A stretch of DNA of 64,000 bases from Pseudomonas sp. K2I15 (GTDB lineage Bacteria > Pseudomonadota > Gammaproteobacteria > Pseudomonadales > Pseudomonadaceae), in contig NZ_NIXO01000003.1 of the NCBI RefSeq assembly GCF_002204795.1, positions 124,001-188,000 of the forward strand. Reading direction: 5' to 3'. Made by a program: the position numbers and the translations under genes. Under the pieces are notes generated by a model. It saw only the letters and a list, made by a program, of their open reading frames with translations. It was not told the origin of the DNA and ran no database searches. Positions 6,297 through 19,759 of this stretch are shown here, piece by piece (within the stretch, counting starts at the first letter, position 1; each line of letters starts with the position of its first letter).

Positions 6297-7202
6297 GTGA
6301 ATCTGCGCCGTTTGAAGTATTTCGTGAAACTCGTCGATATCGGCAGCATGACCCAGGCCGCCGATGTGCTGCATGTCGCGCAACCGGCGCTCAGTCAGCA
6401 ACTGGCCACGCTGGAAGCGGAGTTGCAGCAACAGCTGTTGATTCGGACCAAACGCGGCGTCACCCCGACCGAGGCGGGCAAGGTCCTTTACGGCCATGCG
6501 CAAATCATCTTGCGCCAGTGCGAGCAGGCTCAAAGCGACATCAATGCCACAGGCCATGCCTTGTCCGGGCAGGTATCGGTCGGACTGGCGCCGGGCACCG
6601 CCGCATCGTCGCTCTCTTTGCCGTTGTTGCGCCGGGTGCGCGAGCGTCATCCGGGCATTCTGCTGTACCTCAACGAAAACTTCGGCACCACGTTGAGCGA
6701 ACTGATCATGAACGGCCGGATGGATATGGCCGTGCTCTATGGCGGGCGCGAAGTCCACGGCTTGAGCTTCGTTTCGCTGCTGCGCGAGCACCTTTACCTG
6801 GTGAGCGCTGACCCGGCTATCAGCACGCTCGACGAGATTCCCCTGGCCGAACTGGCGGACATGGACATGCTCTTGCCGCGTCCCTACAACGTTATGCGGC
6901 GGCTGGCGGATGAAGCCTTCCAGCGCATCGGCATGAGCGCGCGGGTGGTGGCAGAAATCGAATCGTCGATCACCCTGACGGCTGCCGTCTCCGGGCATTT
7001 CGGCTCGACCATCCTGCCCGAATCCTCGGCGCGGGTGATGGTTGCCGCCACCTCAGTGCATATGTGCCGCATCGTCGAGCCGGAAATCGAAGCACCACTG
7101 GCGCTGTGTTTGTCCGGGCATCTGCCGCTGTCGGTACCGGCCCAGGCGGTCAAGGCAATCCTGCTGGAACTGGTCGCGCAGATGCGTGGCAGCCTGATAT
7201 GA
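6297..7202 (+). CDS. LysR-family regulator resembling Nac (nitrogen assimilation control)
   Basis: This is a 301-residue LysR-type DNA-binding regulator. The N-terminal winged helix (about 1-60) reads LRRLKYFVKLVDIGSMTQAA, followed by HVAQPALSQQLATLE and RTKRGVTPTEAGK. The effector domain begins QVSVGLAPGTAAS. From memory this agrees closely with enterobacterial Nac, much better than with a generic LysR. I chose GTG 6297 because the domain starts there; longer upstream reading frames do not look coding. The same intergenic region and two downstream promoters carry ATA-N9-TAT sites, the Nac recognition pattern. It is therefore the likely regulator of the aminotransferase operon, the 5-oxoprolinase operon and the SDR-ABC operon. 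A sequence search would settle Nac orthology. Confidence 0.85.
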   Translation: MNLRRLKYFVKLVDIGSMTQAADVLHVAQPALSQQLATLEAELQQQLLIRTKRGVTPTEAGKVLYGHAQIILRQCEQAQSDINATGHALSGQVSVGLAPGTAASSLSLPLLRRVRERHPGILLYLNENFGTTLSELIMNGRMDMAVLYGGREVHGLSFVSLLREHLYLVSADPAISTLDEIPLAELADMDMLLPRPYNVMRRLADEAFQRIGMSARVVAEIESSITLTAAVSGHFGSTILPESSARVMVAATSVHMCRIVEPEIEAPLALCLSGHLPLSVPAQAVKAILLELVAQMRGSLI

Positions 7203-7316: not shown

Positions 7317-7736
7317 ATGGATTCAGAACGCATCAAGGGGTTGATCGATTTGCTCGCCGAATCGGATCTGCTCGAACTGAGTCTGACCGAAGGCGACAGT
7401 ACGATTCGCCTTTTCAAGCAGGCCGGGACGGTCGTGACGACCGCGCCGCAGGCTGATCAGGCGCCGGTAGCGAGCGTCGAATCAGCCAAGCGCCCTTCGG
7501 CAGCGGCCGAGGTCAAGGCCAGCCTTTACGGTGTGCTGCATCTGACGCCGGCAGCCGGGGAAGCACCGTTTGTTGCGGTCGGCGACCAGGTTGAGGTCGG
7601 GCAGACCCTGGCGATCCTCGAAGCGATGAAGATGTTCCACCCGGTCAAGGCCAAAACCGCCGGCCAGGTCACCGCGATCCTTGCCGAGGGTGGCGCCGAA
7701 GTCGAAGCCGGTCAGTCGCTGTTCCGTCTCGGTTGA
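7317..7736 (+). CDS. Biotin carboxyl carrier protein (AccB-like) of the 5-oxoprolinase operon
   Basis: This 139-residue AccB-like carrier has an N-terminal helix and strand region (1-36), an Ala/Pro-rich linker, and a C-terminal biotinyl domain (about 66-139). The biotinylation motif EAMKM is intact with the acceptor at Lys105. ATG 7317 is preceded by CAGGGG; an upstream in-frame start would add an unrelated segment. It is followed after 31 bases by a biotin carboxylase gene and then by PxpB/PxpC/PxpA. It is therefore probably an operon-specific paralogue rather than the housekeeping acetyl-CoA carboxylase carrier. Which acceptor receives the carboxyl group is unknown. Confidence 0.88.
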
Positions 7737-7767: not shown

Positions 7768-9120
7768 ATGTTCGACAAAGTGCTGATCGCCAACCGCGGC
7801 GAAATCGCCCTGCGCATTCAGCGTGCCTGCCATGGCCTGGGGATACAGACCGTGATCGTGCACTCCGAGGCTGATCGCCACGCGCAGTACGTGCAAAACG
7901 CTGACCAGGCCCTGTGCATCGGGCCGGCGTCACCTGGCCAAAGCTATCTGAACCAGGCGGCGTTGTTGTTTGCCGCCAAGGTCAGCGGTGCTCAGGCGAT
8001 CCATCCGGGTTATGGCTTTCTGTCGGAGAACGCCGGGTTCGCCGAGCGTATCGAAGCCGCCGGCCTGACCTTTATTGGCCCAAGCGCGGCGTGCATTCGG
8101 ACCATGGGCGACAAGGTCGCCGCCAAACGGGCAATGCGTGAAGCCGGCGTCCCGTGTGTGCCGGGGCCGGACTCTGTGATGCCCACCGACGACGCCAGCA
8201 TTCAGGCGATTGCCCGTGACATTGGTTACCCGGTGATCGTCAAGGCGGCTGGCGGCGGTGGCGGGCGCGGCATGCGCGTGGTGAAAGAAGAAGGCGAGTT
8301 GCTCGACGCCATCGCCCTGACCCGTGAAGAAGCGCGGCTCGCGTTCGGCAATCCCGAGCTCTACATCGAGAAATTTCTCGGCCATCCACGGCATGTGGAA
8401 ATCCAGGTGTTGTGCGATGCCCATGGCCACGCGATCTGGCTCGGTTGCCGCGATTGCTCCTTGCAACGTCGGCACCAGAAAGTCCTCGAAGAAGCGCCGG
8501 CGCCCGGCATCGATCCCGAACTGATCGCCAAGGTCGGCGAACGCTGCGCCGCCGCTTGCCGGCAGATCGGTTATCGCGGTGTGGGTACGTTCGAGTTTCT
8601 GTATGAGGACGGCGAGTTCTTCTTCATCGAGATGAACACCCGGCTGCAAGTCGAGCACCCGGTGACGGAGATGACCACCGGTATCGATATCGTCCAGCAG
8701 CAATTGCGCATGGCGCGTGGCGAAGTACTGGAGTTGCGCCAGCAAGATGTGCAGCTCAACGGTCACTCGCTGGAGTGCCGGATCAACGCCGAAGACCCGA
8801 TCACGTTTATGCCGACGCCGGGGCTGATCCAGCGCTGGGAAGTCCCCGGCGGCTTTGGGGTTCGGGTCGACTCCCATGTCACCACCGGGTATCGGGTGCC
8901 GCCGTATTACGACTCGATGGTGGCCAAGGTCATCACCCACGGGGCGACCCGCGATGAGGCCATGGCCCGTATGCGCCTGGCGCTGCGTGAACTGTGCGTC
9001 GAAGGCATCTCGACCAACATTCCCTTGCACCGCGACATTCTCGACGACCCGGCCTTCTGCGCCGGTGGCGTGGACATTCATCACCTGGAGCGCTGGTTGC
9101 AACAACGGAGTCCGACATGA
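7768..9120 (+). CDS. Biotin carboxylase (AccC-like) of the 5-oxoprolinase operon
   Basis: This is an ATP-grasp biotin carboxylase of 450 residues, the usual AccC length. It uses ATP and bicarbonate to carboxylate the biotin on a carrier protein. Visible motifs are [12 protein letters not shown] at the N terminus, [10 protein letters not shown], the glycine-rich ATP loop [25 protein letters not shown] and the C-terminal biotin carboxylase region. ATG 7768 is the natural start. The stop overlaps the pxpB start (ATGA), implying translational coupling. No carboxyltransferase of the AccA/D type is present. The neighbouring PxpB/PxpC belong to the family that includes the allophanate hydrolase and urea carboxylase AHS1/AHS2 domains. 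A dedicated carboxylation step on a lactam or amide is therefore conceivable but unproved. Confidence 0.9.
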
Positions 9121-9788
9121 GTACTGCTTCTGTATCGCTGCGTCCGCACATCAGCCTGCTCGGCTCGACCGCGCTCTTGTTTGAAGCCCCTGGTGAACTC
9201 GATCTGGCGCCGCAACAACGGATTTGGAGCCTGGCCTTGCAGGCAGGCGAATGGGCTGAGATTCACGAAGCGGTTCCCGGCATGAACAACCTGATGCTGA
9301 CGTTCATCAAGCCGCCGCGTGACCTCAACGGGTTGTGCGAGCGCCTGCTGCAGGCCTGGGAAACCAGTCAACCGCTGCCGCTGGAAGGGCGCATCGTGGA
9401 GTTGCCGGTGGTTTACGGCGGTGAGTTCGGCCCGCACATGAATGATGTGGTAGCGCACACCGGGCTGGACATCGAGACCATCGCCAACCTGCATTGCGAG
9501 CCGTTGTACCCGGTGTACGCCTTGGGCAGCCATCCGGGTTACTGCTACCTCGGCGGCATGGATTCGCGCCTGGCCACGCCTCGTCGGCAAGTGCCGGTGA
9601 TCAGCATTGGCGCAGGTTCGGTGTCGATTGGCGGGGTGCAGACCGGCGTCTCAGCCTCGGCTGGCCCCAGTGGCTGGAACACCATCGGCCGCACCGAAAT
9701 GTCATTTTTTGACCCGACCCAAAACCCGCCGGCGATGCTCAGGCCGGGCGATATGTTGCGCTTGCGCATCGAGAGGATCATTCGATGA
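9117..9788 (+). CDS. pxpB: 5-oxoprolinase subunit PxpB (KipI family)
   Basis: This cytoplasmic subunit of 223 residues belongs to the KipI/AHS1 carboxyltransferase-domain family. It is part of the prokaryotic ATP-dependent 5-oxoprolinase that opens 5-oxoproline to glutamate. [12 protein letters not shown] and [19 protein letters not shown] are characteristic. The start overlaps the biotin carboxylase stop and its stop overlaps the pxpC start, both as ATGA, which supports a stoichiometric complex. The presence of pxpC and pxpA in the same operon makes the assignment firm, although the biotin genes raise the question whether this complex acts differently from the simple PxpABC enzyme. Confidence 0.9.
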
Positions 9789-10756
9789 TCGAGATTCTAT
9801 CGGCCACCGCCCTGGCCACCGTGCAGGACTTCGGTCGCTTCGGGAGCCTGGGTTACGGCGTCGGCACCTCCGGCGCGATGGACCATTTGGCGTTGGCGTT
9901 GGGCAACCTGCTGCTGGGTAATCCCGAAGACGCGGCAGCCATTGAGATTCCGTTGTTCCCGTTCGAAGTACGGTTTACCCACGATTGTGCGTTCGCGTTC
10001 ACCGGTGCGGCTTGCGAAGCGACTCTTGATGGTCAGCCATTGTTGCCGTTCTGGGTGGCGCAGGCCCGGGAAGGCCAGGTACTGAACCTCGGCTATCCAA
10101 CCTCCGGCAGTCGCGCTTATCTGTGCCTTGCCGGCGGCGTCGACGTGCCATCGGTGCTCGGCTCGCGCAGCACGCAATTACGCGGCGAGTTCGGTGGTTT
10201 GCAGGGGCGCGCCTTGCAGCAGGGCGATCGGATATCGGCGCTGCGTCCGGGCGTCAGTGTGCTGCCGACAGATTTCGGTGTCGTGCCCCCGAGCCAGGCG
10301 CTGCCCTTGCAACGCGATGGCCTGCCAGCGATGCGCGTACTGCCGGCGGCGGAATACGAGTGCTTTCTGGAGGAGTCCCGTGCCGCGTTTTGGGCCGGTG
10401 AATGGAAAGTCACCAGCCAGAGCAACCGTTACGGCTACCGCCTCGAAGGCGCGCCGATCTTGCCCAGGGCGCCGATGGAAGTCCGCTCCCACGGCATCGT
10501 CCCCGGCGTGATCCAAGTGCCTCACGGCGGCCAGCCGATCATCCAGATGCGCGACGCGCAACCGAGTGGTGGTTACCCGAAATTCGGCACGGTGATCGAG
10601 GCCGACCTGTGGCGCCTGGGCCAGGCGCCGATTGGCAGCAAGGTGCGGTTTATCGAGTGCAGTTACGCCGAAGCCGTTACAGCTCTGGAAGACAATCAGC
10701 GCTATCTCGCGGAGGTCAGCCGCTTGGTTGACCTTCACGGGCTGGCCTCGCGTTAA
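9785..10756 (+). CDS. pxpC: 5-oxoprolinase subunit PxpC (KipA family, biotin-dependent carboxyltransferase fold)
   Basis: This 323-residue protein belongs to the KipA/AHS2 family and is the partner of PxpB. Family signatures include QDFGRFGSLGYGVGTSGAMD near the N terminus, TSQSNRYGYRLEG, and GIVPGVIQVPHGGQPI followed by QPSGGYPK near the C terminus. The length is typical. It overlaps pxpB by four bases and is followed after 12 bases by a degenerate carrier gene. In known systems PxpB and PxpC form the ATP-dependent part that activates 5-oxoproline, with PxpA completing hydrolysis. The domain is homologous to biotin-dependent carboxyltransferase domains, which is notable because a biotin carboxylase and carrier lie in the same operon. 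Confidence 0.9.
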   Translation: MIEILSATALATVQDFGRFGSLGYGVGTSGAMDHLALALGNLLLGNPEDAAAIEIPLFPFEVRFTHDCAFAFTGAACEATLDGQPLLPFWVAQAREGQVLNLGYPTSGSRAYLCLAGGVDVPSVLGSRSTQLRGEFGGLQGRALQQGDRISALRPGVSVLPTDFGVVPPSQALPLQRDGLPAMRVLPAAEYECFLEESRAAFWAGEWKVTSQSNRYGYRLEGAPILPRAPMEVRSHGIVPGVIQVPHGGQPIIQMRDAQPSGGYPKFGTVIEADLWRLGQAPIGSKVRFIECSYAEAVTALEDNQRYLAEVSRLVDLHGLASR

Positions 10757-10768
10757 GGACATTCAACC

Positions 10769-11167
10769 ATGACAAATCAGGAAATCCGCCAGTTGGCGGT
10801 GTGGCTCAGGGAGAAGCACCTGGCTGGCGCGGAGATACGTCGGCCGGGGCTGCATTTGGTGCTCAAGCGCGGTCTCGATGAAGTCGCGGCCCCCATCGCT
10901 ATTCCCATGGCAGCACAGGTTAAGCAAGAGCAGCTACTGAAGACTCCAAACCTGGGCCGATTGCTGCTGACGCACCCGCAACAAAGTGAGGTGCTGGCCT
11001 CGGTCGGCAGCCAAGTAGCGCCAGGGCAACTGGTGGCGTTGTTGCAAGTCGGCGATCTGCTGTTGCCGGTCCGCAGCCAGAAATCCGGACGGGTGGCGGC
11101 GGTGCTGGTGCCGTGTGGCACAACGGTGGGTTATGGCGAAGCGTTCATGCGTCTGGATGCAGCATGA
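10769..11167 (+). CDS. Degenerate biotin-carrier-like protein without the biotinylated lysine
   Basis: This 132-residue protein aligns end to end with the carrier at 7317. The N-terminal helix and the strand HLVLKRG match the AccB N terminus. The C-terminal part (about 78-130) has the biotinyl fold pattern VGSQVAPGQLVALL...RVAAVLVPCGTTV. Where the true carrier has [10 protein letters not shown], this one has LQVGDLLLPV, so the acceptor lysine is replaced by Asp96. It therefore cannot be biotinylated at the normal site. It may be a structural or regulatory subunit of the complex, or a decaying paralogue. The intact frame and tight operon position argue against a pseudogene. Confidence 0.8.
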   Translation: MTNQEIRQLAVWLREKHLAGAEIRRPGLHLVLKRGLDEVAAPIAIPMAAQVKQEQLLKTPNLGRLLLTHPQQSEVLASVGSQVAPGQLVALLQVGDLLLPVRSQKSGRVAAVLVPCGTTVGYGEAFMRLDAA

Positions 11168-11183: not shown

Positions 11184-11951
11184 ATGAAAATCGATTTGAA
11201 CGCTGATCTGGGCGAGGGCTTCGGCCCGTGGCGCATGGGCGAGGATGAAGCGTTGATGAGCCTGATTTCGTCGGCCAACGTGGCGTGCGGTTTCCATGCC
11301 GGTGATCCGCTGATCATGGACAACACCGTGCGCCTGGCCAAGGCCGGTGGCATCGATCTGGGCGCGCATGTGGGCTTCCCTGATTTGATGGGCTTCGGTC
11401 GGCGGCAGATGAACATCGAAATCAAGGAGCTGGCGACCTACGTGATTTACCAGCTCGGTGCGCTGGCCGGGATGGCAGTGGTCAATGGCCATCGCATGAC
11501 GCACATGAGCTTCCACGGCGCGCTGGGCAACATGGTTGCCGCCGATGCAGCGCTGGCCGAGCCATTGGTGTGTGCGGTCGCCGCATTCGATCCGACACTG
11601 ATCATCAGTTCATCAAGCAGCCGGGCCATCGAAAATGCCGCTGATAAATGCGGGCTGCGGGTCGCCACGACGTTCCTCGCCGACCGCGCCTATGACGATG
11701 ACTGCCTGCTGGTGCCGCGCAAGGTGCCGGGCTCGGTGATCAAGGAACCGGCAGCCGTGCTGCAACGGGTTCGGCAGTTGCTGGAGGAGGGCACCGTGAC
11801 CAGCCTGAACGGCAAGCAACTCAAGGTGCCGGCGCATTCGATCCTGTTGCACGGCGACACGCCGGGCGCTGTGGAATTGGCGCGCACCCTCCGTCGAGAA
11901 ATCGAGCTGGCAGGCGGTTGCATCACACCGATTTCGCAGCTGTTGGCGTAA
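11184..11951 (+). CDS. pxpA: 5-oxoprolinase subunit PxpA (LamB/YcsF family)
   Basis: This cytoplasmic 255-residue protein of the LamB/YcsF family is the third component of 5-oxoprolinase. Signatures are KIDLNADLGEGFG at the N terminus, ANVACGFHAGDP, GAHVGFPDLMGFGRR and the C-terminal LLHGDTPGAV. ATG 11184 follows the degenerate carrier gene by 16 bases. It is the last gene of the operon. 5-Oxoproline is a common damage product of glutamine and glutamate, so the operon yields glutamate for carbon and nitrogen. That fits Nac-type control. Confidence 0.92.
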   Translation: MKIDLNADLGEGFGPWRMGEDEALMSLISSANVACGFHAGDPLIMDNTVRLAKAGGIDLGAHVGFPDLMGFGRRQMNIEIKELATYVIYQLGALAGMAVVNGHRMTHMSFHGALGNMVAADAALAEPLVCAVAAFDPTLIISSSSSRAIENAADKCGLRVATTFLADRAYDDDCLLVPRKVPGSVIKEPAAVLQRVRQLLEEGTVTSLNGKQLKVPAHSILLHGDTPGAVELARTLRREIELAGGCITPISQLLA

Positions 11952-12083: not shown

Positions 12084-12836
12084 ATGCCATTTTCAGACTA
12101 CAAAACCGCGCTGGTCACCGGCGCTTCTTCCGGGATTGGCGCCGCTGTCGTCGAGCGTCTGTGTCAGGAAGGCGTGCAAGTCCATGCACTGGCGCGCAGC
12201 GCCGACAAGCTTGAAGAACTGGCCGCCAAAACCGGCTGCATCGCCCACGCCATTGACGTCACCGACCTCGCCGGGCTGACCCGTCTGTTCGAAACCCAGC
12301 AGTTCGACATTTTGGTGAACAACGCTGGGGTCGATAAACCGGGTTCGATTCTCAAGGCTGACGCCGACGGCATCGACTTGCTGATCGACGTCAACCTGCG
12401 GGCGGTGTTGCACCTGGCGCGGCTGGCGTTGCCGGGGATGGTTGAGCGTGACTGCGGCCATATCATCAACATCAGTTCGATTGCCGCGGCCTACAACTTC
12501 GGTGGCAACTCCACGTACCACGCCACCAAGGCTGCCGTGAGCATGCTCTCACGGCAATTGCGCATTGATGCCTTTGGCAAGCGGGTTCGGGTCACCGAGA
12601 TTTGCCCGGGGCGCGTGGCCACCGACATTTTCGCCCATGTGCACGGTGACTCCGAGGAGACCTACAAGCGTTTCGTGGAAGGCTTCGAACTGCCCCAGGC
12701 CAAGGACATTGCCGACGCCATTGCGTTTGCCATTGCCGCACCGATTGCAGTCAACGTCGGGCACATGGAAATCACCCCGACCCTGCAAGTGCCAGGCGGG
12801 CTGTCGACGGCCCGTCCGCAGGATTACCAGGGCTGA
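12084..12836 (+). CDS. Short-chain dehydrogenase/reductase (SDR)
   Basis: This is a cytoplasmic NAD(P)-dependent oxidoreductase of 250 residues with the classical SDR fold. The cofactor motif TGASSGIG spans residues 12-19, NNAG follows, and the catalytic residues are Ser132, Tyr145 and Lys149 (YHATK). It resembles the YdfG-type group of hydroxy-acid or serine dehydrogenases, but this is inference. It heads a unit followed by a four-gene polar amino acid ABC importer 119 bases downstream. It probably oxidises the imported hydroxylated compound or one derived from it. A Nac-type site and promoter lie just upstream. Confidence 0.85.
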   Translation: MPFSDYKTALVTGASSGIGAAVVERLCQEGVQVHALARSADKLEELAAKTGCIAHAIDVTDLAGLTRLFETQQFDILVNNAGVDKPGSILKADADGIDLLIDVNLRAVLHLARLALPGMVERDCGHIINISSIAAAYNFGGNSTYHATKAAVSMLSRQLRIDAFGKRVRVTEICPGRVATDIFAHVHGDSEETYKRFVEGFELPQAKDIADAIAFAIAAPIAVNVGHMEITPTLQVPGGLSTARPQDYQG

Positions 12837-12955
12837 GCTTTAACCGCGTAACAGCACCGAAGAAGAACGGATAAATCCGTCATCGCTCCACTTCCGCCAC
12901 GGCTCGGCCTGGCGTCTTGTTTCTGCCCCTAGCCCAATGCCGATAGGGATTGACC

Positions 12956-13657
12956 ATGAAGCATGACTTCGATTTGGCCGCGGTTCTGCAAGGCGAATAT
13001 GCCGAGCTGATCGTCAAGGGCATCGAAATAACACTGCAGCTGGCGCTGTTCGCCTGGCTGCTGGCAATGGCCCTGGCGCTGTTGCTGGTGACCATACGCC
13101 TGACCGGCAACAAGTTAGCAGACCGACTGGTGGCCGGCTATGTGTCGTACCACCGCAACGTGCCGACGCTGGTGCAATTGATGCTCTGGTACTTCGGTGT
13201 ACCGACATTGCTAAGCGAGTCCACGCAGCTGTGGCTGGCGAACTACAGCACCGAATACTTGTTCTCGGTGATTGCTTTGGGGCTGTGCCAGGCCGCGTAT
13301 TTCTGTGAAGACATTCGCAGTGGCCTGCGGGCCATTCCGGCCGGGCAGACCGAAGCGTCCCGGGCGCTGGGGTTGGGGTATGTGCGTTCGATGCGCTACG
13401 TGATCCTGCCGCAAGGCGTGCGCAATAGCCTGCCGTCCCTGATCAACCACACGGTGCTGTTGTTCAAGAACACCAGCCTGGCCATGGCCATCGGCGTGGT
13501 CGAGCTGACCTACGCCACCCGCGAAGTCGAGAACTACACCTTCCGCACGTTCGAATCCTACCTGGTGGCCACGGTGTTCTACCTGATCTTTTCACTGCTG
13601 TTGATGGGGCTCGGCGCGCTGTTGGCGCGACGCTTCAACAAAGCGCTGGCGAGGTAG
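12956..13657 (+). CDS. Polar amino acid ABC transporter, permease subunit 1 (HisM/GlnP type)
   Basis: This inner membrane permease of 233 residues has about five hydrophobic segments. The cytoplasmic EAA loop, [21 protein letters not shown], is the site of contact with the ATPase. A related EAA motif in the next gene shows that the two permeases form a heterodimer. ATG 12956 follows GGGA. The second permease begins six bases after its stop. Together with the ATPase and binding protein it forms a polar amino acid uptake system; the neighbouring SDR hints at the substrate class but does not identify it. Confidence 0.9.
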   Translation: MKHDFDLAAVLQGEYAELIVKGIEITLQLALFAWLLAMALALLLVTIRLTGNKLADRLVAGYVSYHRNVPTLVQLMLWYFGVPTLLSESTQLWLANYSTEYLFSVIALGLCQAAYFCEDIRSGLRAIPAGQTEASRALGLGYVRSMRYVILPQGVRNSLPSLINHTVLLFKNTSLAMAIGVVELTYATREVENYTFRTFESYLVATVFYLIFSLLLMGLGALLARRFNKALAR

Positions 13658-13663
13658 GCGACG

Positions 13664-14407
13664 ATGTTCGATCTCTTCTCGATTGTGCAAAACAACTGGG
13701 CCCTGTTCCTGATCGGTCAGTACCCGCATGGCCCACTGGGCGGTTTGGCCAATACCTTGATCCTGGCGGCCCTGGCGTTGTTGCTGGCATTTCCGTTCGG
13801 CCTGCTGCTGGCGCTGGCTCGGGTTTCTCCGTGGCGCGGCCTGCGTTGGGCTGCCACGGTCTGGGTCTATGTGCTGCGAGGCATTCCGCTGCTGATGGTG
13901 ATCTTCTGGACGTACTTCCTGGTGCCCTTGTTGATCGGCCACAACATCACTGGCTTCGTCACGATGCTGTGCACCCTGGTGATCTACCAGAGCGCGTACC
14001 TGTGCGAAATCATCCGTGGCGGTATCCAGGCGTTGCCGCCCGGGCAGTACGAAGCGTCCCGTGCGCTCGGCCTCGGTTACCTGCGCACGACGATCTGGGT
14101 GATCTTGCCGCAAGCGCTCTACAACGCGCTGCCCAGCCTGATCAGCCAGTTCATCTCGATCATCAAGGAAACCTCGCTGGGCTACGTGATCAACGTCCAG
14201 GAAGTGACCTTCGCTGCCAACCAGGTCAACAACCAGTTACTGACCAAGCCGTTCCAGGTGTTTTTCATCCTGGCGATCATCTACTACCTGCTGTGTTTCG
14301 GCCTGACCCATCTGGCGGGCTGGGTGGAACGCCGTATCGCTCGCAAGCGCCTGGGCAACGGCGGTCCGGCTGCGGCTGCCGACCCGTTGCTGGCCATTGA
14401 TAATTGA
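13664..14407 (+). CDS. Polar amino acid ABC transporter, permease subunit 2
   Basis: This inner membrane permease of 247 residues is homologous to the preceding gene, with an EAA loop reading [21 protein letters not shown]. It probably pairs with the upstream permease. The stop overlaps the reading frame leading to the ATPase start, and the ATPase ATG lies 14 bases downstream. The spacing indicates one operon and translational coupling. Confidence 0.9.
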
Positions 14408-14421
14408 AGAGGGTTGCGACC

Positions 14422-15159
14422 ATGCATCCAATGATCATGTTTTCGAATATCAACAAATGGTACGGCGAGTACCACGCACTGACCGACATCACCGCCGAGG
14501 TGAAACCCGGTGAAGTGGTGGTGTTGTGCGGGCCGTCCGGTTCCGGAAAATCCACGTTGATCCGCACGGTCAATCGTCTGGAAGACATCCAGAAAGGCCA
14601 GATCCTGTTCGATGGCCAGGACGTGCACGGCACCGACGCACACATCAACAGGTTGCGCAGCCGGGTGGGTTTCGTGTTCCAGAGCTTCAACCTGTTTCCG
14701 CACCTGTCGGTGTTGGAAAACATCACCCTGGCGCCGAGCAAGATCCGCAACCTTAAAGGTTCGGCCGCCAAGCAACAGGCCATGCAATTGCTGGATCGGG
14801 TTGGGCTGGCACACAAGGCTGGCGCTTATCCGGCGCAGCTCTCCGGCGGCCAGCAACAGCGGGTGGCGATTGCCCGCGCATTGGCGATGGAGCCGCCGGT
14901 GATGCTGTTCGATGAGCCTACCAGTGCGCTCGACCCGGAAATGGTCGGCGAAGTGCTGAGTGTGATGAAAGGCCTGGCCAAGGATGGCATGACCATGATG
15001 TGTGTGACCCACGAGATGAATTTTGCCCGTGAAGTCGCCGACACCATCTGGTTTATGGACGCGGGTCAGATTCTGGAAAAGAGCACGCCCGAAAGCTTCT
15101 TCAATCAGCCGACGCACCCGCGCGCGCAACGCTTTATCGCCGACCTGCGGGCTCATTGA
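14422..15159 (+). CDS. Polar amino acid ABC transporter, ATP-binding subunit
   Basis: This cytoplasmic ATPase of 245 residues belongs to the GlnQ/HisP group. The Walker A motif is GPSGSGKST, the signature is [15 protein letters not shown], and Walker B is [13 protein letters not shown]. The H-loop histidine is in CVTHEM. ATG 14422 is preceded by GAGGG; an upstream TTG at 14404 overlaps the permease stop but lacks a better ribosome site. It drives import through the two preceding permeases. Confidence 0.93.
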
Positions 15160-15216
15160 GCCGCAGCGGTTTTGCTCACTCTGCCATCCGACTTTCCCAT
15201 CTCCGGAGTTTTTTCC

Positions 15217-16050
15217 ATGCGTATGAAGCATCTGTTTGTCACGCTGGCGTTAGGTCCTTTGGCCGTTTCGGTCGCACAGGCCGACCAATTGAGCGACATC
15301 ATGGCCAAGAAGTCGTTGAGCTGCGGCGTGTACGCCGACGTGCCGCCGTTCTCGGCGCCGGATCCGAAAACCCGCGAACTGGTGGGCATGGACGTCGATT
15401 TGTGCAAGGCGCTGGCCAAGACCATGGGCGTCGAACTTGAACTCAAGCCGCTGTCGGTCGAAGCCCGGATTCCGGAAGTGAAAATGGGCCGCGTCGATGT
15501 AATCTTCGCTAACCTGGCTTACACCAAGACGCGGGCCGAACAGATTCAGTTCAGCGACCCGTACTACATCGCCAAGGAAACCCTGGTGGTGCGAGCGGCG
15601 AATGCCGATCAACCGAAAAGCTTCTTCAAGGACAAGCGCATCAGCTCCACCAAAGGCTCGACCTCCGAGCAGTCGATCCGAATTGCCGGGGCCACTCCGG
15701 TGACGTTCCAGGACACTGGCTCGGCCTACATGGCCTTGCAGCAGAACAAGGTCGTGGGCCTGGTGACCAACACCATGACCGCCTTGAAACTGGTCAATCA
15801 AGCCAGGGCCAGTGGTATCGAATTGGCGCTTGCCAAGGAGCCGATGGCGCTCGAGCCGATTGGCGCGGGCATGCGCAGGGATGAGCCGGCGTTCCTTGCC
15901 AAGGTCAACGAGTCATTGGCGGCAATGGAAAAAGCCGGGGAGATCGATGCAATCTGGGATCGCTGGATCGGCCCAAACACTGAGTACAAAATGGTGCGCG
16001 AGGATAAAGTGCAGAGCCTCAGCAGTTTGAAGTTCGATCCTTTGCCTTAA
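15217..16050 (+). CDS. Polar amino acid ABC transporter, periplasmic binding protein
   Basis: This is a type 3 periplasmic solute-binding protein of 277 residues with a signal peptide ending near SVAQA. The mature part contains the usual two-lobe pattern. ELVGMDVDLCKALAK near the N terminus and RVDVIFANLAYTKTRAEQI are typical of amino acid binders. It is the last gene of the importer operon and is followed by a clear terminator. The ligand is unresolved. Confidence 0.9.
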   Translation: MRMKHLFVTLALGPLAVSVAQADQLSDIMAKKSLSCGVYADVPPFSAPDPKTRELVGMDVDLCKALAKTMGVELELKPLSVEARIPEVKMGRVDVIFANLAYTKTRAEQIQFSDPYYIAKETLVVRAANADQPKSFFKDKRISSTKGSTSEQSIRIAGATPVTFQDTGSAYMALQQNKVVGLVTNTMTALKLVNQARASGIELALAKEPMALEPIGAGMRRDEPAFLAKVNESLAAMEKAGEIDAIWDRWIGPNTEYKMVREDKVQSLSSLKFDPLP

Positions 16051-16206: not shown

Positions 16207-17436
16207 CTAAAAGGACGTAAACAAGTAGCTTGCGATCAAGCGTGTCTCGTCAATATCCCTGGCGTCGTCACTGCGGTAGGTCGCGTTCCTCAACCGCACA
16301 GAAAAGCCTTTAAGGCTCCCCTGAAAGGCGTAGCTCACATCCACATCGCGCTCCCATTCCTTGTCGGCGCCGACTTTCTTCAAGCCATCGCCATGGATAT
16401 ACGCGGTAAAAAAGCTCAGGCCGGGAACACCCATGGCGGCGAAGTCGTAACCATAGCGCAGCTGCCAGCTACGTTCGCCGGCGCTCCCGAAGTCATGGTA
16501 TTGAACGTAGTTGGGCAGGTAGGGGTTATTGATGTAAGGAAAGCCCGTAGCCCCGCCCATGACTTGGTAGGTCGCCATGACGCTATGCCCATTATCCAGG
16601 GCATAGCCGAACGCGGCGGCGTATGCGCGGTTATCCACCTCTCCCGCTTTGGCTGCACCAACATCACGACTTGAGAAGGCACGCAGGTCAGTGGTCAACG
16701 TACCTTTGCCGAGGCGCGTGTTGTGTATCAACCCAGCGAACTGCTGGCGGTACACATCATCAAGCTCGCCATAAAAGTACGTTGCACTTAGCGCTGGCGT
16801 CAGCTTGTAGGTCCCGCCGCCATATCGATAGTTATCGCCTATACCGGTTGCACGATAGCGACCGTCTTTCACCGCGAGGGTGATGTCCTGAAGGTCGGTA
16901 GAGTCGGGCGTAATCGTCTTATCGAATTGAGCCAGGTTCAAGGTCAGGCGATCTACGTCGGTAGAGTTGATCTGCCAGCCCTGGAATGTCTGAGGAAGCA
17001 GTCGACTGTTGTTGTACTGAAGAACCGGAACCTTTGGCAATGACATCCCATAGCGCAAGGATGTCTGAGATATTTTGAGTTTGACGCCATAGCCTGCTTT
17101 TGAATATTCATCAACGGCCTCACCGGAAGCCCGTTTGGGGAGGAGGCCGCTACCGGAACGGTCTGGGCTCGAGTCCAGTTTGTAGCCCGCAAACACCAGT
17201 GCGTCGACGCCAAAGCCGATGATTCCCGGTGTGTATCCCGACTCATAGTTGAGCAAAAAACCTTGAGCCCATTCTTCTCTTTTGGAGACGCCCGTTCCCT
17301 GACGAAAATCCCCGTTGTAGTAGAAGTTTCGTGCTTCCAGGCGAATCTTGCTGTCCGCGATAAAGTCATCGGCCATTGAGGTGTCGATGGAGATAAGTAC
17401 AGGTGTGAGCAAAGCAACATATAAGGCGCGGTTCAT
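16207..17436 (-). CDS. OprD-family porin of the PDC/oxalomesaconate operon
   Basis: This outer membrane channel of 409 residues has a signal peptide ending near TSMA and an OprD-type mature start, SKIRLEARNFYYNGDFRQG. WQLRYGYDFAAMGVPG recurs as in other OprD porins, and the C terminus ends in Phe. I start at ATG 17436 because AGGA lies about ten bases upstream; the in-frame extension upstream has no signal-like character. It lies 91 bases after dctA on the same strand and is probably the last gene of the operon. It resembles GalP-type porins in position, so a dicarboxylate or tricarboxylate substrate is likely. Confidence 0.88.
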   Translation of the reverse strand: MNRALYVALLTPVLISIDTSMADDFIADSKIRLEARNFYYNGDFRQGTGVSKREEWAQGFLLNYESGYTPGIIGFGVDALVFAGYKLDSSPDRSGSGLLPKRASGEAVDEYSKAGYGVKLKISQTSLRYGMSLPKVPVLQYNNSRLLPQTFQGWQINSTDVDRLTLNLAQFDKTITPDSTDLQDITLAVKDGRYRATGIGDNYRYGGGTYKLTPALSATYFYGELDDVYRQQFAGLIHNTRLGKGTLTTDLRAFSSRDVGAAKAGEVDNRAYAAAFGYALDNGHSVMATYQVMGGATGFPYINNPYLPNYVQYHDFGSAGERSWQLRYGYDFAAMGVPGLSFFTAYIHGDGLKKVGADKEWERDVDVSYAFQGSLKGFSVRLRNATYRSDDARDIDETRLIASYLFTSF

Positions 17437-17527
17437 TTTTATTATTTTCCTGACGCAGGGAGTCGCTGCTCGGTGCTGGACCGAACAGGGACTGTTTAGA
17501 AATGGTGTGATCGATAGAGCAGAAGTT

Positions 17528-18841
17528 TTACGGTTTGGTGCCAAGTTCCAGAGCGAGCTTGTCGCGATCCAGTTCTTTTTCCCACGCTGAGACAACCAAT
17601 GCGGCAACGCCGTTACCCACCAGGTTAGTCATGGCAAGTCCGGTGCCCATGAAGCGGTGGATACCCAGAATCAATACCATGCCCGCCACCGGTACAAGCG
17701 GTACCACCATCAAGGTGCTGGTCAACATGACAAAGGCTGCACCTGAAACACCGCTGGCACCTTTGGAGGTGAGCATGGCCACGATGACTAACGTCAGTTG
17801 CTGAGACAGTGACAGGTCAATGTTCAGCGCTTGGGCGATGAACAGCACCGACATCGTCAGATAGATGTTGGTACCGTCGAGGTTGAATGAATAGCCGGTG
17901 GGAATAACCAGCCCGACGACGGGTTTGGAGCAGCCCAGTCGTTCCATTTTTTCCATGATCTGAGGCAGTACCACTTCCGATGAACTGGTGCCGAGTACGA
18001 CTAGCAACTCCTCTTTGATGTAAGCGATAAAACGCAGGATACTGAACCCGCAGATTTTCGCGACGCCACCCAACACTACAATCACGAACAGCGCACACAG
18101 GATGTAGAAGCTGCCGACCAGTTTCATGAGGGGCAGGAGCGCACCTATACCGTAAGTACCGACGGTGAAAGCGATGGCGCCGAATGCACCGATGGCGGAA
18201 AGCTTGGCGATGATGTGCACGATGCGAAAGAACACACCCGACAGACCTTCGATCATGTCGTAAACCGGTTTGCCTTTCTCTCCCATGGCTGACAAGGCGC
18301 ACCCGAAGAGTACGGAGACCAGCAATATGCAAAGCACATTCCCTTCAGCAAAGGCCTGAACAAACGTCGAGGGGATGATCCCCATCAGAAATTCGACCAT
18401 GTGCATGTGCTGAGCTTTCTCGGCGAACCCGGTGACCGCTGACGCGTCCAGCGTATTCACGTCCACATTGAAGCCCGCACCCGGCCTGAACAGGTGGCCG
18501 CCAATAAGGCCTATCAGCAGCGAAACAGTCGAAATGACTTCGAAGTAGAGCAATGCTTTCCCGCCGACCCGACCGACTTTTTTCAGGTCGCGCATACCGG
18601 CGATACCGGTGACAACTGTGCAGAAAACCACAGGGCCGATGATCATCTTGATCAGCTTGATGAATGCATCGCCCAGCGGCTTGAGGTCGGCAGCAAAGGT
18701 TGGCCAGAAGTGGCCGACGGCGACGCCCGCGATAATTCCCAACAGGACTTGAAAGTACATCGCGCGATAGAAGGGCGGCTTGGTCTTCACCTTCATCGGA
18801 AGGGTTACATCGACCTGAGCAGATGCAGGACTGGGGTTCAT
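17528..18841 (-). CDS. Dicarboxylate:cation symporter, DctA family
   Basis: This inner membrane symporter of about 437 residues belongs to the DAACS family (DctA/GltP). Diagnostic motifs are [27 protein letters not shown] and [12 protein letters not shown]. The family imports C4-dicarboxylates or acidic amino acids with protons or sodium. In this operon it is the likely importer of 2-pyrone-4,6-dicarboxylate or a related aromatic-derived acid. That substrate is an inference from the neighbours. ATG 18841 has AGAGAG upstream; GTG 18850 is an alternative. A housekeeping dctA is presumably elsewhere on the chromosome. Confidence 0.9.
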
Positions 18842-18895
18842 GGCGTTCACTCTCTGTAAGTCTTATTGTTGGAGGTGCAGCAAAGCGTGGTGGGC

Positions 18896-19759
18896 TTAGC
18901 GTCCGTACAGCTTCATCGGGTTATCGATCAGCAGTTTTTGACGCAGCCGAGGATCGGTACAGAAGTTGAACATCAGATCTACCAACTCACCGTCGTTGGG
19001 CATGTCTTTACTGATGTTTGGGTGCGGCCAATCAGTGCCCCACAGGACGCGATCTGGTGCTATCTCAATCAGCTTCTGTGCAAATGGCGCGGCATCATCG
19101 AATGGTCGCCGGCCCACGGATACGCGTTCCGCGCCACACACCTTGACCCATGCCAGCGGATTTTCCATCAGTTGCTGCAACGCCAGGAAGGACTGCTGTT
19201 CAATGCCATCCTGAGCTTTTACCCGACCCATATGGTCGATGATGAATGGTACGGGGATCCGCGCCAATCTGTCGGTATAGGTCAGGATATCTTGTGCATC
19301 AAGATGCAGGACGACATGCCATCCCAAATCCGCAAGGCGATCTACAGTGCTATCAAAGACGTCCAGATCTGGCGCGCCACCCAGGTGTGCCACGAAGTTG
19401 AACCGCACGCCGCGAACACCGCCGGCGTCCATCTCGGCAAGCTGTTCATCGGTCTCACTGCCGTCAACGATTGCTACGCCTCGATACCGTCCTTCACTAC
19501 GAGCAATAGCGTCCAACATCGCGCGATTGTCGCTGCCGTGACAGCTGGCCTGGACAATCACACCACGCGTGAATCCCAAGTGGTCGTGCAATGCCCGCAA
19601 TGTTTCAAACGGGGCGTCTGGTGGGGTATAGCTACGATCTTCGGCATAAGGGAAGTCAGCCGAAGGGCCGAAGACGTGGCAGTGAGCATCCCAGGCGCCA
19701 GCAGGAAGCGGCTGCTTTGGTTGTGTAGGGTTGGCGTCAGGGGCGAGGCAGGTTTTCAT
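18896..19759 (-). CDS. ligI: 2-pyrone-4,6-dicarboxylate lactonase (LigI-like amidohydrolase)
   Basis: This cytoplasmic amidohydrolase-superfamily enzyme of 287 residues should hydrolyse 2-pyrone-4,6-dicarboxylate (PDC) to 4-oxalomesaconate. The N-terminal metal motif DAHCHVFGP has His26 and His28. VIVQASCHGSDN, IIDHMGR (His176) and WGTDWPHPN (Asp243) follow. The pattern matches remembered LigI of Sphingobium closely. ATG 19759 has AAAGGA upstream. It starts 113 bases after the LysR gene, with a LysR-type dyad in the gap, and is followed by dctA. The galD, galC and galB genes upstream encode the following steps. Other small hydrolases of the same COG are the main alternative. Confidence 0.87.
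   Translation of the reverse strand: MKTCLAPDANPTQPKQPLPAGAWDAHCHVFGPSADFPYAEDRSYTPPDAPFETLRALHDHLGFTRGVIVQASCHGSDNRAMLDAIARSEGRYRGVAIVDGSETDEQLAEMDAGGVRGVRFNFVAHLGGAPDLDVFDSTVDRLADLGWHVVLHLDAQDILTYTDRLARIPVPFIIDHMGRVKAQDGIEQQSFLALQQLMENPLAWVKVCGAERVSVGRRPFDDAAPFAQKLIEIAPDRVLWGTDWPHPNISKDMPNDGELVDLMFNFCTDPRLRQKLLIDNPMKLYGR

Follow-up and report, generated by a model that had tools for sequence, protein, structure and literature searches.

Lysine-less biotin-carrier paralogues in pxp operons of Pseudomonas and relatives: a candidate structural subunit of PxpABC-type enzyme complexes

The stretch of DNA analyzed here (the window) comprises 64,000 nucleotides of Pseudomonas sp. K2I15 and contains a run of genes in the order LysR - B1 - biotin carboxylase - pxpB - pxpC - B2 - pxpA - short-chain dehydrogenase - two permeases - ATPase - solute-binding protein (Table 1; G and L numbers below are our handles for genomes and loci). 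PxpB belongs to the carboxyltransferase family CT_C_D and PxpC to CT_A_B, and homologues of PxpA, PxpB and PxpC, the gene set that marks a PxpABC system, stand together in the operon. Because relatives of B1 align from ATG 7317, this codon is a more likely B1 start than TTG 7254. Behind the operon, on the opposite strand (16207-19759, -), genes for an OprD-family porin, a sodium:dicarboxylate symporter, and an amidohydrolase were found. Elsewhere in the genome pxpA occurs twice more: at L202 (G000:C5:54000-66000) it has its own pxpB and pxpC at 32-37% identity, and at L201 (G000:C118) it lies close to where a short contig ends, accompanied by a partial pxpC. Together with the importer and the dehydrogenase, these other pxpA genes suggest that the substrate of the operon is some lactam or cyclic amide instead of 5-oxoproline or in addition to it.

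Table 1 Genes of the pxp operon and features of B2 (window positions)
Feature	Position	Strand	Remark
LysR-type regulator, upstream of B1	6309..7202	+	
B1, intact biotin carrier ([10 protein letters not shown])	7317..7736	+	
Operon's biotin carboxylase	7768..9120	+	
pxpB, carboxyltransferase-like subdomain C/D	9117..9788	+	ATG 9117 inferred, overlaps preceding gene's stop
pxpC, carboxyltransferase-like subdomain A/B	9785..10756	+	PxpC equivalog model 320.6 bits, under cut-off 500
B2, lysine-less biotin-carrier paralogue, 132 aa, Asp96 at biotin-lysine position	10769..11167	+	Alignment, Pfam, fold match
B2 N-terminal helix and beta-hairpin, residues 1-35	10769..10873	+	Carrier/biotin carboxylase assembly element in known structures
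B2 codons 91-100 around former biotin site	11039..11068	+	Hairpin turn = codons 95-96 (GGC GAT)
pxpA, LamB/YcsF family	11184..11951	+	
Short-chain dehydrogenase	12084..12836	+	Linked in relatives too
ABC importer: two permeases, ATPase, family-3 solute-binding protein	12950..16050	+	

A first-pass annotation had described B2 as a protein with intact frame and operon spacing that aligns with the intact carrier 3 kb upstream and has Asp96 at the position of the biotin lysine, and our analyses bore out each of these points. The B2 frame (10769-11167) fits between the end of pxpC (10756) and the start of pxpA (11184). Local alignment of B2 with B1 scored 100, compared with a mean of 31.5 and a maximum of 55 in 500 shuffles, Pfam Biotin_lipoyl matched residues 57-128 (E 6.5e-08, 32.7 bits vs. 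a cut-off of 22.1), and a profile-profile comparison of the B2 and B1 families aligned 134 columns including the N-terminus (probability 99.1, E 4.8e-19). The resemblance is thus well above chance, and B2 is a full-length paralogue of B1. On TIGR00531, the model of the acetyl-CoA carboxylase carrier, B2 reached 25.9 bits, far under the cut-off of 115.2, which B1, the operon's real carrier, likewise missed (87.0 bits). The core around the site aligned gap-free in both the profile-profile and the structural alignment. In LQVGDLLLPV (residues 92-101), Asp96 replaces the lysine of the E-A-M-K-M-like motif that would be biotinylated; B2 has the fold of a biotinyl domain and, lacking this lysine, is not a functional biotin carrier. 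A PADLOC run assigned B2 to no family, and tblastn with B2 as query gave no match in the plasmid collection.

The AlphaFold2 model of B2, built from 33 aligned sequences (mean pLDDT 81.3, core about 94), begins with a helix (residues 3-15) and a hairpin (20-24/29-33), which a linker of low confidence (37-51) joins to the core, where strands 88-94 and 97-102 border the turn 95-96; a similar layout was predicted for B1. Foldseek ranked the E. coli BCCP biotinyl domain first (1bdo, E 5.6e-06), and VIA-align 2 matched the model to E. coli BCCP chain 4hr7_G with Z 15.3 and an rmsd of 1.2 over 77 residues (Arabidopsis BCCP1, 9a87: Z 14.7). Since the matched ranges, 54-130 in B2 and 80-156 in 4hr7_G, are of equal length, a single offset of 26 applies, which places Asp96 on residue 122, which we take to be the biotin lysine of E. 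coli BCCP, and the invariant H69-P70 of B2 on residues 95-96, presumably within the thumb. By sequence, the best solved relative of B2 was 4hr7_B (E 6.5e-19), the full-length E. coli carrier as solved in complex with the carboxylase, and this match begins at the carrier's own first methionine (chain position 21). As modelled, B2 retains at its N-terminus the helix-hairpin through which, in known structures, the carriers of bacteria assemble with biotin carboxylase. In window-type operons, the net charge of this segment (B1 7317-7421, B2 10769-10873) was opposite in every row of both alignments, being basic in B2 (+1 to +3, 33/33) and acidic in B1 (-1 to -2, 34/34), with several divergent B2 proteins deviating from the basic pattern. 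Such opposite charges would suit a barrel built from the hairpins of both proteins.

The B2 alignment comprised 65 rows, including the 33 named loci, and in the 63 rows that contain the site, which represent 49 distinct sequences mostly from one genus and hence not independent, the site was occupied by D (13), E (9), L (8), A (5), N (3), S (3), Q and P (2 each), or R, H, F, and G (one each), and never by lysine (0/49). The residue before the site, Met in carriers, was Gly in 46 of the 49, and all 64 B1 rows (51/51 distinct) have EAMK. C-terminal pieces of a frame-broken B2 are included in these counts and its N-terminal pieces (L046, L113) were dropped because they end short of the site; alignments A1 and A3 omit this copy altogether. 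Two ORFs without the lysine, L068 in G322 and L069 in the second operon of G081, were judged by eye from their reading frames and stand outside the 49, and seven more B2 rows from other genera also had no lysine at the site. Whether the substitution is conserved across Pseudomonas had been raised as a check on the first-pass annotation, and the answer is divided: lysine is missing throughout (49/49) and Asp is present in 13/49 only, so that the feature conserved in the B2 family, as far as the aligned sequences indicate, is the absence of lysine and not Asp. Orthologues that keep EAMKM, which were to speak against that annotation, did not occur among the 49. Residues M1, Q8, G63, H69, P70, G86, Q87, L88, L92, G95, V120, G121, and G123 were invariant in the 33-row B2 alignment, no lysine among them, and G95, L97, L99, P100, and R102 of the former biotin hairpin were invariant or almost so.

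In a few divergent proteins (L060, L198), a lysine stands one residue away from the site, where the alignment could itself be off by one. L198 is a second carrier-like ORF of G470 (6397-6885), a genome that has B1, biotin carboxylase, pxpB, pxpC, and pxpA, with this ORF further along; we left it unclassified as it scored alike with the B1 (75.9 bits) and the B2 profile (74.3 bits), and it is a possible counterexample. A candidate B2 fusion in L071, a 490-residue open frame, was rejected, as only its last 130 residues match B2 or B1 and a biotin carboxylase gene spans the rest in another frame.

A search of 398 Pseudomonas genomes with B2 gave matches at E 0.001 or better in 56, of which 31 (26 + 4 + 1) hold B2 as judged by locus and the other 25 are weak matches that were not checked one by one. 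The operon's biotin carboxylase was found at an identity of at least 75% in 26 of the 398 genomes, that of the window included, when the best four candidates per genome were scored, and all 26 have B2, 25 of them as one open frame; one copy is broken, and one, in G322, is a weak match borne out by its reading frame. In four more genomes (G194, G037, G318, G081), the biotin carboxylase next to B2 is of 61-64% identity, and G394 has B2 with no biotin carboxylase adjoining. Gene order from LysR to the ATPase was that of the window in 33/33 named loci, including those of Variovorax paradoxus and Microvirga. In four Pseudomonas genomes (G181, G335, G148, G322) pxpB and pxpC are absent from the run; none was found in the 19 kb read in G335 or the 11 kb read in G322. 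In G181 and G148 (L165, L166), pxpB and pxpC of 40-52% identity were seen about 3 kb past the B1 - carboxylase - B2 - pxpA run, on the opposite strand. A second B2 search over 95 relatives yielded no new B2 locus, the matches past the known loci, at E 1.2e-5 or worse, not being checked singly.

At four loci (G766, G616, G745, G394), B2 occurs together with pxp genes, and the stretch read contains neither B1 nor a dedicated biotin carboxylase. G766 and G616 have pxpB - pxpC - pxpA, followed by LysR - B2 - dehydrogenase - ABC importer; G745 and G394 have pxpC - B2 - pxpA, the G745 contig stopping just beyond pxpC. The nearest biotin carboxylases anywhere in these four genomes (61-63% identity) lie beside an ordinary carrier. 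In G394, another biotin carboxylase (50%), accompanied by a carrier of 118 residues, lies some 18 kb away from B2 and may be linked to it. In a phylum sample of 398 genomes, 146 had a pxpC match at 1e-30, and among the best 30 pxpC loci returned, six had a biotin carboxylase in or near them; B2 was present in five of these six, the sixth being that of G470 with its unclassified second carrier. Of the other 24 loci, three had B2, and none was found within 1.5 kb on each side of the remaining 21. Judged by gene neighborhood, biotin-type pxp operons contain B2 regularly and pxp loci that lack biotin genes contain it occasionally, and its tie to PxpABC is at least as strong as that to biotin. The four loci indicate that a role with the carboxylase is not the whole story, and as pxp genes are the commonest companions of B2, PxpBC or PxpA is at least as likely a partner as biotin carboxylase. 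The first-pass annotation had placed B2 in a biotin enzyme operon and drawn from this a scaffold or regulatory role: a structural or regulatory role remains the natural reading, and the four loci make 'biotin enzyme operon' too narrow.

In a tree of 71 proteins, B2 (30 rows) fell on one side of a branch with support 100/99, apart from B1 (28) and housekeeping AccB (13). When the biotin-motif columns were removed and four rows added, B2 (31) still lay on one side (98/94), with B1 less resolved. Both runs warned of long branches in several B2 proteins, which leaves the order within the family unsure. Since B2 forms one clade with and without the motif columns, the loss of the lysine was probably one old event; the earlier description of a paralogue that lost its lysine is right in that the lysine is gone, and needs amending in that it was not lost in this lineage, B2 being, by these trees, an old separate family.

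Among close relatives (the window and 19 of the 33 named loci), dN/dS was 0.18-0.22 for B2 and 0.02-0.12 for the other operon genes except B1, whose whole-gene value of 0.22-0.32 is inflated because it includes about 14 codons upstream of the likely start. The fair comparison is therefore by domain, where B2 had 0.07-0.20 in the N-terminus, 0.14-0.19 in the core, and 0.22-0.52 in the linker, and B1 0.03-0.08, 0.09-0.16, and 0.38-0.48, respectively. B2 is under purifying selection, though weaker than that on B1 in the N-terminus and core, in agreement with the suggestion that it is maintained. Frameshifts in close relatives, which would point to relaxed selection, occurred once: the B2 gene of P. 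cyclaminis MAFF 301449 is divided between two reading frames (L113 7001-7401, = L046). The other operon genes of this draft of about 410 contigs are open, and the break may be an assembly error.

With the loss of the site being old and common to the relatives, B2 is probably no broken gene but a structural component of an enzyme complex. In its full form, the reading that we favor is that B2 is an ancient, maintained, non-catalytic carrier paralogue that serves a PxpABC-type enzyme complex as one of its structural subunits, a reading to which we assign even odds (a probability of about 0.5). Full-length homology, the absence of the lysine, a single clade, purifying selection, constant pxp linkage, and the predicted fold are its computed basis, from which we infer partner and activity. 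In Chloroflexus aurantiacus, according to PMC11077971, two biotin carboxylase dimers are held together by an eight-stranded barrel built from the N-terminal hairpins of the carrier domain. The B2 hairpin would take places in such a barrel joining carboxylase dimers and carriers, which, where B1 exists, would be a mix of B1 and B2 hairpins, and the lysine-less core and thumb might dock on the partner without carrying CO2. B2 would in this way set the stoichiometry and geometry of the complex, and could do the same for PxpABC alone at loci without a biotin carboxylase. Coevolution singled out no partner: across 30 operons (the window and 29 of the 33 named loci), partial correlations with B2 were 0.23 for B1, 0.34 for biotin carboxylase, 0.19 for PxpB, 0.30 for PxpC, and 0.02 for PxpA, and the control genes spanned the same range (LysR 0.31, perm2 0.27, ATPase 0.43, perm1 0.06, SDR 0.04), even though four of the five candidate partners reached small p values under label permutation alone.

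The anatomy that suggests a scaffold, a cofactor-less carrier in the operon of its active paralogue, would equally suit a competing regulator that fills carrier places on biotin carboxylase or PxpBC and lowers their activity, as proposed for plant BADC, for which inhibition is one of two models in PMC11926652. The same paper argues that structural data on BADC do not fit inhibition, and in the loci read B2 stands always-on with its target in one operon, an arrangement that a fixed subunit would fit better than a switch; we regard such a regulator as unlikely. B2 might instead serve PxpBC as a pseudo-carrier, its Gly-x hairpin, in place of Met-Lys, entering the carboxyltransferase-like cleft as a lid or positioning element without biotin. 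The family membership of PxpB and PxpC, the near-invariant residues of the former biotin hairpin, and the company of pxp genes in the loci read, where biotin carboxylase and B1 are not always found, are all in keeping with this idea. It is nevertheless quite improbable given that 21 of the 24 phylum pxp loci without biotin carboxylase have no B2 within 1.5 kb and that neither pxpB nor pxpC appeared in the stretches read of G335 and G322.

That B2 still carries a group, through another residue or a shifted lysine, would be in keeping with the lysine found one residue off the site in a few divergent proteins (L060, unclassified L198). It is very unlikely, however: none of the lysines is invariant in the 33 rows, and the core around the site aligns gap-free. 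A decaying, functionless duplicate might account for the faster evolution of B2 relative to the operon enzymes and for the one frame-broken copy, yet purifying selection, the family-wide loss of the lysine, and single open frames in 25 of the 26 operon-bearing Pseudomonas genomes leave it hardly any credibility. Beyond the structural-subunit reading lies a wider speculation, which we consider possible but doubtful: that a bacterial family of biotin-free pseudo-carriers, arisen once out of a biotin carrier, might be an intrinsic subunit of PxpABC-type lactam enzymes and dock where a biotinyl domain would, also where the locus has no biotin genes. If this were true, a carrier domain would have been given a new, biotin-independent use as a non-covalent element of the active site or of assembly.

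A search of titles and abstract openings in the open-licence PMC literature, a weak negative, found no lysine-less carrier in a pxp operon. With active carrier, carboxylase, and carboxyltransferase-like subunits in one operon, and further loci seemingly without biotin parts, the question of what a cofactor-less carrier does becomes directly testable. The family also calls for caution in annotation, as a Pfam Biotin_lipoyl match alone would name such site-less genes biotin carriers.

Compared with known systems, B2 shares with E. coli AccB (BCCP) full-length homology, fold, N-terminal helix-hairpin, linker, and thumbed core, and differs from it in the missing biotin lysine, the Gly before the site, and its own invariant H69-P70 and V120-G121-x-G123. 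It is likewise a paralogue of B1 over 134 columns with the same predicted layout, from which the EAMK motif and the opposite hairpin charge of B1 set it apart. The operon resembles the PxpABC 5-oxoprolinase in its PxpA, PxpB, and PxpC homologues, the ATP-dependent opening of 5-oxoproline being a putative activity. The canonical pxpABC loci of E. coli and B. subtilis are not known to contain carrier genes, and 21 phylum loci differ from the B2 operon in having none within 1.5 kb. B2 also resembles BADC of the plant plastid acetyl-CoA carboxylase, described in PMC11926652 as a non-biotinylated carrier paralogue without the motif beside an active carrier, which touches the carrier thumb and is argued there to aid assembly, a role disputed against inhibition. 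B2, too, is a maintained motif-less paralogue beside an active carrier, the latter being absent from the stretch read at four loci, and it belongs to bacterial pxp operons, some of them without a dedicated biotin carboxylase. By analogy, B2 would thus be BADC-like in anatomy and working, a bacterial counterpart of the site-less plant carrier paralogues in tractable Pseudomonas.
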